The position numbers and the translations under genes are program-made. This document shows, in pieces, positions 20,469-21,914 of a stretch of DNA of 64,000 nt. The notes beneath the pieces were generated by a model, which was not told the DNA's origin, did not search any database, and saw only the letters and a list, made by a program, of their open reading frames with translations. Source of the stretch: Methanococcoides sp. LMO-2 (GTDB lineage: Archaea > Halobacteriota > Methanosarcinia > Methanosarcinales > Methanosarcinaceae); NCBI RefSeq assembly GCF_038432375.1, contig NZ_JBCAUS010000006.1, positions 372,001 to 436,000 on the forward strand, written 5' to 3'. How positions within the stretch are numbered: position 1 is the stretch's first letter; each line of letters begins with the position of its first letter.

Positions 20469-21914
20469 ATGAAGTCGATAACATCTTCGCGAATGCTGGC
20501 GATCGATGCGAACTGCGAATACCTGGGTCTCAAAGGACTGCAACTGATGGAGAACGCAGGAGCTGCCATTGCACGTGAAGTAAAGGAACGTATCGGAACC
20601 GGCAAAGCGATCTTCATTGCAGGACGGGGAAACAACGGAGGAGATGCCTTCGTTGCTGCAAGACACCTCTCATCAGATCCGGATATAAAGGTATACATCG
20701 CACTTGTGGGTCAGGCATCCCGGATAAGGACCGATGATGCAAAACACAACTTCGACCTCCTTGGACATTGTACCATAGAAGGACTGATCGAGGTCACCGA
20801 TGCATCGCAACTTAAGGATAAAGAATGGATCGACGACTCCGACATTATCATAGATGCCCTGCTTGGGACCGGGATCAGTGGAAAACTGAGGGAACCCGAA
20901 TCCACGATCATAGACCTGATAAATGGTTCAGGCAAGCCTGTAATTGCTGTTGATGTACCATCCGGGTTCGATCCCGACGGCGGGGATATTGACAAAGCGG
21001 TGAAAGCGGATATTACCCTCACTTTTCACGAGATGAAGACCGGGCTTACCACTCCACTTGCCGCCAAATATACTTCCGAAGTAAAGGTCGTGAACATCGG
21101 CGTGTGTTCAAATGCTGAAAAGTATGTTGGCTCCGGCGACCTGAAGGTACTTCAAAGACGATTCGCGGACAGCCATAAAGGACAGTCAGGAAGGATACTG
21201 ATCATAGGCGGAGGACCGTACTCGGGTGCACCGGCACTGGCGGCCATGGCAGCATTACGCACCGGTGCGGACATTGTCACAGTCGCTGCCCCTGTCAGTG
21301 TTGCAGGGACGATCGCAGCATATTCACCTAACATAATAGTAAGACCGCTTTCATCGGATGCCCTCTGCGAAGAGGACATGGAGACGATCACCGAACTTAT
21401 TGGATCACATGATGTGGTTGTGATCGGAATGGGACTTGGAAGGGATGAAAGAACCAAGAAAGCAGTGTCATAGATGATACCCCTCTGTAAGAAAGTGGTA
21501 GTGGATGCCGACGGACTCTACGGCATAGAACTGCCTATCCCTGAAGGAACAGAGATGATAATAACACCACATTCCAGAGAGTTCAGAGCACTTGGAGGAG
21601 AAAGTGCCGATGATGTGAAGGCGTTTGCCAGCAGTAATCACCTGACCGTACTCCTAAAGGGAAAAGAAGATACCATCAGCAATGGGGAAAGGGTTGCTAT
21701 CAATGTCACAGGTAATCCCGGCATGACGGTTGGAGGTACCGGGGATGTACTTGCAGGGATCACAGGAGCACTTTTTGCAATAGCCTCGCCAGTGGAGGCG
21801 GCATGTTGTGCAGCATTCATCAATGGTGCAGCAGGGGACCTGGCCTTTGAGGACAGGGGTTACGGGCTTCTTGCAACCGATGTTATAGACCGGATCACAG
21901 ATGTGATGAAATAA
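20469..21914 (+). CDS. nnr: Bifunctional NAD(P)HX epimerase/dehydratase NnrE-NnrD with internal in-frame TAG
   Basis: If TAG 21471-21473 is read through, the product is 481 residues. Residues 1-210 are the NnrE epimerase (GRGNNGGDAFVAARHL, VDVPSGFDPDGG). Residues from about 235 are the NnrD ADP/ATP-dependent dehydratase (IIGGGPYSGAPALAAMAAL, DADGLYG, TPHSREF, GNPGMTVGGTGDVLAG). Together they repair hydrated NAD(P)H. The TAG falls at codon 335, in a variable helix inside the NnrD domain, and both sides stay in one frame with intact motifs. Pyrrolysine insertion is the likeliest reading. A stop would leave a truncated kinase-fold domain and a separate 146-residue piece starting with the ATG right after TAG. 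Confidence 0.85.
21471..21473 (+). other. In-frame TAG, candidate pyrrolysine codon
   Basis: Single amber codon within nnr at residue 335 (context GTGTCATAGATGATA). None of the complete genes checked in this window uses TAG to terminate. No frameshift accompanies it. Confidence 0.65.

Follow-up and report, generated by a model that had tools for sequence, protein, structure and literature searches.

The gene for the bifunctional NAD(P)H-hydrate epimerase/dehydratase (nnr, encoding NnrE-NnrD) of Methanococcoides sp. LMO-2 has a TAG inside its reading frame, and the locus raises the question of whether this codon ends the protein or is translated. The gene lies in a 64,000-nucleotide stretch of DNA, here called the window, which was analyzed as a whole together with the genome that it comes from (G000), assembled from stretches to 2,309,573 of 2,310,830 bases. 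Coordinates of the gene, its parts, and comparable genes elsewhere in the genome are given in Table 1.

Table 1. Features of the nnr locus (window positions) and of other TAG-containing genes (positions on contigs of G000)
Feature	Position	Strand	Remarks
nnr, bifunctional NAD(P)H-hydrate epimerase/dehydratase (NnrE-NnrD)	20469..21914	+	481 residues with TAG335 as sense; terminator TAA
In-frame TAG, codon 335, predicted pyrrolysine	21471..21473	+	sole interruption of the nnr frame
NnrE (YjeF_N) domain, residues 25-192	20541..21044	+	PF03853, E 5e-42
NnrD (Carb_kinase) domain, residues 244-477, TAG inside	21198..21899	+	PF01256, E 5.5e-54, single stretch
146-residue frame from the ATG adjoining the TAG (product under re-initiation)	21474..21914	+	
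fpoH, F420H2 dehydrogenase subunit H, TAG at codon 61	C4 16397-17440 (L134)	-	core energy gene
Sep-tRNA:Cys-tRNA synthase, TAG at codon 102	C5 100420-101574	+	
PKD-domain surface protein	C2 305831-307951 (L077)	+	four TAGs, no other stop
PAS histidine kinase, 1454 residues	C3 13886-18250 (L133)	+	two in-frame TAGs (588, 1193)

With TAG335 taken as a sense codon, Pfam places both YjeF_N and Carb_kinase, each complete, in one Nnr chain, and the Carb_kinase match spans the TAG. Taken separately, the parts of Nnr before and after the TAG cover positions 2-85 and 95-241, respectively, of the Carb_kinase profile (242 positions), and an Nnr terminated at residue 335 would miss more than half of this domain. 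TM0922 of Thermotoga maritima (PDB 2ax3) matches the read-through product from one end to the other (E 3.6e-63). An AlphaFold2 model (mean pLDDT 88) puts residue 335 in a helix (327-339) flanked by core strands (316-319 and 342-346), where it is probably a solvent-facing position of NnrD. Aligned homologues have K (35), E (12), Q (6), or R (2) at this position, with M, L, I, V, S, and N occurring once each. There is one nnr match in the genome, and no second copy was found there. An earlier note on this DNA had described a frame that continues across a single TAG, a site that is variable and noncatalytic, and an ATG behind the TAG that opens a 146-residue frame; our results agree with it on all of these points.

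The genome encodes the means to translate UAG. A complete pylT-S-B-C-D set is found in one cluster (contig C6, 210684-215039), and PylS, PylB, PylC, and PylD each exceed their NCBIfam equivalog cutoffs; PF21360 proved unsuitable as a probe for PylC, giving no match although the protein is present. The tRNA-Pyl encoded by pylT is the sole tRNA with a CUA anticodon detected in G000, where no other amber suppressor tRNA was found. Two mtmB genes carry one TAG each, and in the mtbB and mttB genes the TAG falls within a single Pfam domain. The genome also encodes one canonical-looking aRF1 with NIKS and GGQ motifs, so that termination at UAG may, presumably, compete with Pyl in principle. The pylB gene itself (C6 212051-213292, plus strand; L052) ends in TAG, and reading through would add 42 residues that are not coding-like and overlap pylC. 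A TAG-ended pylB is also known from M. burtonii, M. mazei, and M. acetivorans (PMC2933860).

As the earlier note had claimed, genes in the window avoid TAG as a stop: among 65 nonoverlapping open reading frames (ORFs) of at least 90 residues, 35 end in TGA and 29 in TAA, and the lone TAG is that of nnr. TAG makes up 18.8% of the TAA, TAG, and TGA triplets in intergenic DNA of the genome, a composition that predicts approximately 12 TAG stops for the 65 genes. Genome-wide, ORFs called with a self-trained codon score (n = 1978) end in TGA (1092), TAA (855), or TAG (31). A coding-like extension of at least 40 codons past the stop follows 22 of the 31 TAG ends versus 123 of the 1947 TAA or TGA ends (~6%; Fisher P = 2.6e-19). 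Because this test has a background of 5-7% for TAA and TGA, which probably stems from neighboring genes in the same frame, domain matches across the TAG were added as evidence. In three further TAG-ending ORFs (encoding a repeat protein, a response regulator, and a methyltransferase), homology or a domain match indicates that the frame goes on past the TAG, which brings the internal TAGs among the 31 ORFs to 25. Six more come from ORF calls in which TAG was permitted: the PKD surface protein accounts for four, and a MarR regulator gene and a helicase-like gene for one each; the last, on contig C8, is the weakest case. The genome thus has about 31 internal TAG codons; 8 belong to mtmB, mtbB, and mttB, and the remaining 23 are spread over 19 other genes. 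TAG is therefore depleted as a stop and frequent within conserved genes, which is one of the features expected of a Pyl code.

Six ORFs, including pylB, end at TAG with no convincing extension. At three of the six ends (C2 87412, C3 63246, and C3 218263), a second stop follows, immediately in two cases and after two codons in the third, as if read-through were tolerated.

Fragment searches across the 11 genomes of the genus show that the TAGs are nested by age. One of these genomes corresponds to Methanococcoides vulcani in its nnr identity (86% in both collections searched), which places the window in a Methanococcoides species. Those in the genes for a biotin carboxylase subunit, a FumC-like lyase, an FrhB-like protein, and a CcmF-like protein are common to six species, and the FumC-like and CcmF-like genes have a TAG in one further species each. 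The TAG of Sep-tRNA:Cys-tRNA synthase (SepCysS) is found in three species (G000, G019, and G025) and that of FpoH in two (G000 and G019), and the TAGs of nnr, an indolepyruvate oxidoreductase-like gene, an aldehyde dehydrogenase gene, and a small methyltransferase gene are found in G000 only. On another branch of the genus, a FumC-like lyase gene of G021 (C137 40015-40524) contains a TAG that its relatives G022 and G023 lack, a possible parallel gain.

Family models span the TAG in FpoH (NF040610, 596 bits) and SepCysS (TIGR02539, 585 bits), and family matches also cross it in the biotin carboxylase, the FumC-like lyase, the aldehyde dehydrogenase, the CcmF-like protein, the response regulator, the MarR regulator, and the PKD protein. 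Homologues of the PKD protein, and a paralogue in the same genome that is 61% identical, have no TAG. A second SepCysS-like gene, also TAG free and 45% identical, lies at C2 826426.

A PYLIS-like RNA element downstream of the TAG was considered as a general signal and rejected. The 100 nucleotides past the nnr TAG (window positions 21471-21570) do fold better than shuffled sequences (z = -2.2), and no unusual fold was seen after the corresponding site in the nnr genes of relatives. Neither the 8 methyltransferase sites (P = 0.17) nor the 17 other sites (P = 0.23) differ in this respect from the coding background, which is the ground for the rejection. The strongly folded RNA downstream of the TAG in a GAF/PAS kinase gene (C3 217430 region of G000; z = -3.6) was seen in the same analysis.

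The history of codon 335 was followed in 112 genomes of the Methanosarcinaceae, 110 of which have an nnr match. TAG occurs at this position in G000 only. The nearest relative compared (G019, with 94% Nnr identity) has GAG and nine other members of the genus have AAG, each one base from TAG. The nnr gene of G013 was rejected as a second case, as its single TAG is at another site, and one fragmentary homologue contains several stops of all kinds.

Translation could instead end at the TAG and restart at the ATG that adjoins it, yielding one piece with NnrE and part of NnrD and a second piece of 146 residues, which may reassemble. The contiguous TAGATG makes this conceivable, and the strongest hint is that codon 336 changed from Ile to Met on the G000 lineage only; with nine lineage-specific replacements in 480 codons, a change at a named neighbor has a chance of about 2%. 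However, Met336 is found once more among the homologues, and the ATG lacks the upstream Shine-Dalgarno-like match of at least 4 nucleotides that 54% of called ATG starts possess. The cut would also fall in a helix within one domain, between core strands, and in none of the 30 other TAG-ending ORFs is the TAG followed at once by a start codon, yet many of these ORFs are clearly single genes. We therefore regard re-initiation as very unlikely.

That the TAG is a recent nonsense mutation, with nnr turning into a pseudogene that yields a truncated, NnrE-only product, would fit its restriction to G000 and the lack of a duplicate in that genome. However, constraint past the TAG is not relaxed: compared with G019, G000 has a dN/dS ratio of 0.17 in the part preceding the codon and 0.13 in the part following it, and the downstream part has accumulated two replacements (one of them Ile336 to Met) and seven silent changes on the G000 lineage. 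These ratios indicate that purifying selection is still acting downstream of the TAG. The gene shows no other damage, and the interruptions in G000 relative to G019 are all TAG. Across the 305 genes (~99,000 aligned residues) that could be compared with part of the G019 genome, no internal TAA or TGA was found in G000, against three internal TAGs, of which only that of nnr is clearly inside a gene; the other two, near gene starts, may be start-calling artifacts. Decay of the gene is thus hardly probable at all. A one-base sequencing or assembly error is extremely improbable, for although the TAG comes from a single draft assembly of 14 contigs and G019 has GAG there, the same 305 genes contain no TAA or TGA errors, and other TAGs recur in related species and independent genomes, which rules out sequencing error as their general cause.

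Decoding of TAG335 as pyrrolysine, giving a full-length NnrE-NnrD protein of 481 residues, is in our judgment very probably correct, with the codon being a recent, near-neutral gain at a helix position that varies. What carries this reading is the Pyl machinery, the frame left intact around the TAG, the behavior of TAG across the genome, the codons of the sister species at this site, and the continued purifying selection; Pyl insertion at codon 335, its efficiency relative to aRF1, and an Nnr that stays active are inferences. PylB, PylC, and PylD would make Pyl, with which PylS would charge tRNA-Pyl (CUA), and the charged tRNA would read UAG in the nnr mRNA, so that Nnr would be made in full, with Pyl at a site that tolerates it. 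TAG335 would have arisen recently in the LMO-2 species by one substitution from GAG or AAG. As TAG is mainly a sense codon here, such a mutation would be nearly neutral, and the codon would persist, enlarging the set of genes that need Pyl. The proposal in the earlier note of a neutral amber codon read as Pyl, part of a proteome-wide drift, is thus strengthened by the internal TAGs of the genome and their nesting within the genus. The pyl genes, whose absence that note named as a refutation, are all present.

The evidence tips slightly in favor of a broader interpretation, in which TAG has become an effectively fixed sense codon in this Methanococcoides lineage. Pyl sites, both private and shared, would have accrued stepwise in core genes (FpoH, SepCysS, biotin carboxylase, and nnr) until growth on every substrate depended on pyrrolysine and loss of the pyl genes was no longer possible, a codon-reassignment ratchet caught at several ages in one genus. 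The presence of FpoH and SepCysS among the predicted Pyl genes suggests that Pyl may be needed whatever the substrate, with the TAG-free SepCysS-like gene to be kept in mind. Since the gains are graded within the genus (six, three, two, and one species), one can test directly in what order, and at what cost, a codon is reassigned, and nnr would be a clear and recent example of a stop becoming an everyday sense codon in a gene with a housekeeping role. For annotation the consequences are practical: under the standard code, nnr, fpoH, and about 20 other genes of G000 would be split or discarded, and loss of NADHX repair, F420H2 oxidation, or Cys-tRNA synthesis would be falsely scored.

Among known systems, TM0922 shares the two-domain NnrE-NnrD architecture but has no TAG, with Glu at the position aligned to Nnr residue 335. 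The MtmB, MtbB, and MttB methyltransferases of the same cell likewise have a single in-frame TAG read as Pyl, but in these enzymes Pyl is catalytic and conserved, whereas in Nnr the predicted Pyl site is variable and noncatalytic.

A closer likeness is Thg1, the tRNA-His guanylyltransferase, whose gene in Methanosarcina acetivorans, and in no other species, has an amber codon that can be translated as Pyl and is not needed for activity (Heinemann 2009, in PMC2933860); further neutral Pyl cases have been proposed (PMC3639795). The nnr site has features of this type: the TAG is not conserved, the position is variable and noncatalytic, and downstream constraint is kept. Both are housekeeping enzymes with a TAG in one species, a sense codon in relatives, and a residue that is not essential in Thg1 and probably not in Nnr. 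They differ in gene and genus, in that Pyl translation was reported for Thg1 and is deduced for nnr, and in the many further such sites in the G000 genome. No prior mention of these sites or of their nesting in the genus was found in the part of the literature covered; the kind of event is known, and these particular sites appear to be new.

At the scale of the genome, the nearest counterpart is the archaeal "Pyl code" that Kivenson et al. reportedly described in Science in 2025, in which TAG is said to be a sense codon in several archaea, Methanococcoides among them. TAG is reportedly rare there as a stop, with many Pyl proteins of varied functions, and G000 resembles it in its few TAG stops and its many predicted Pyl proteins. 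The present case differs from it in concerning a different species and in showing, species by species, how the gains of TAG are nested.
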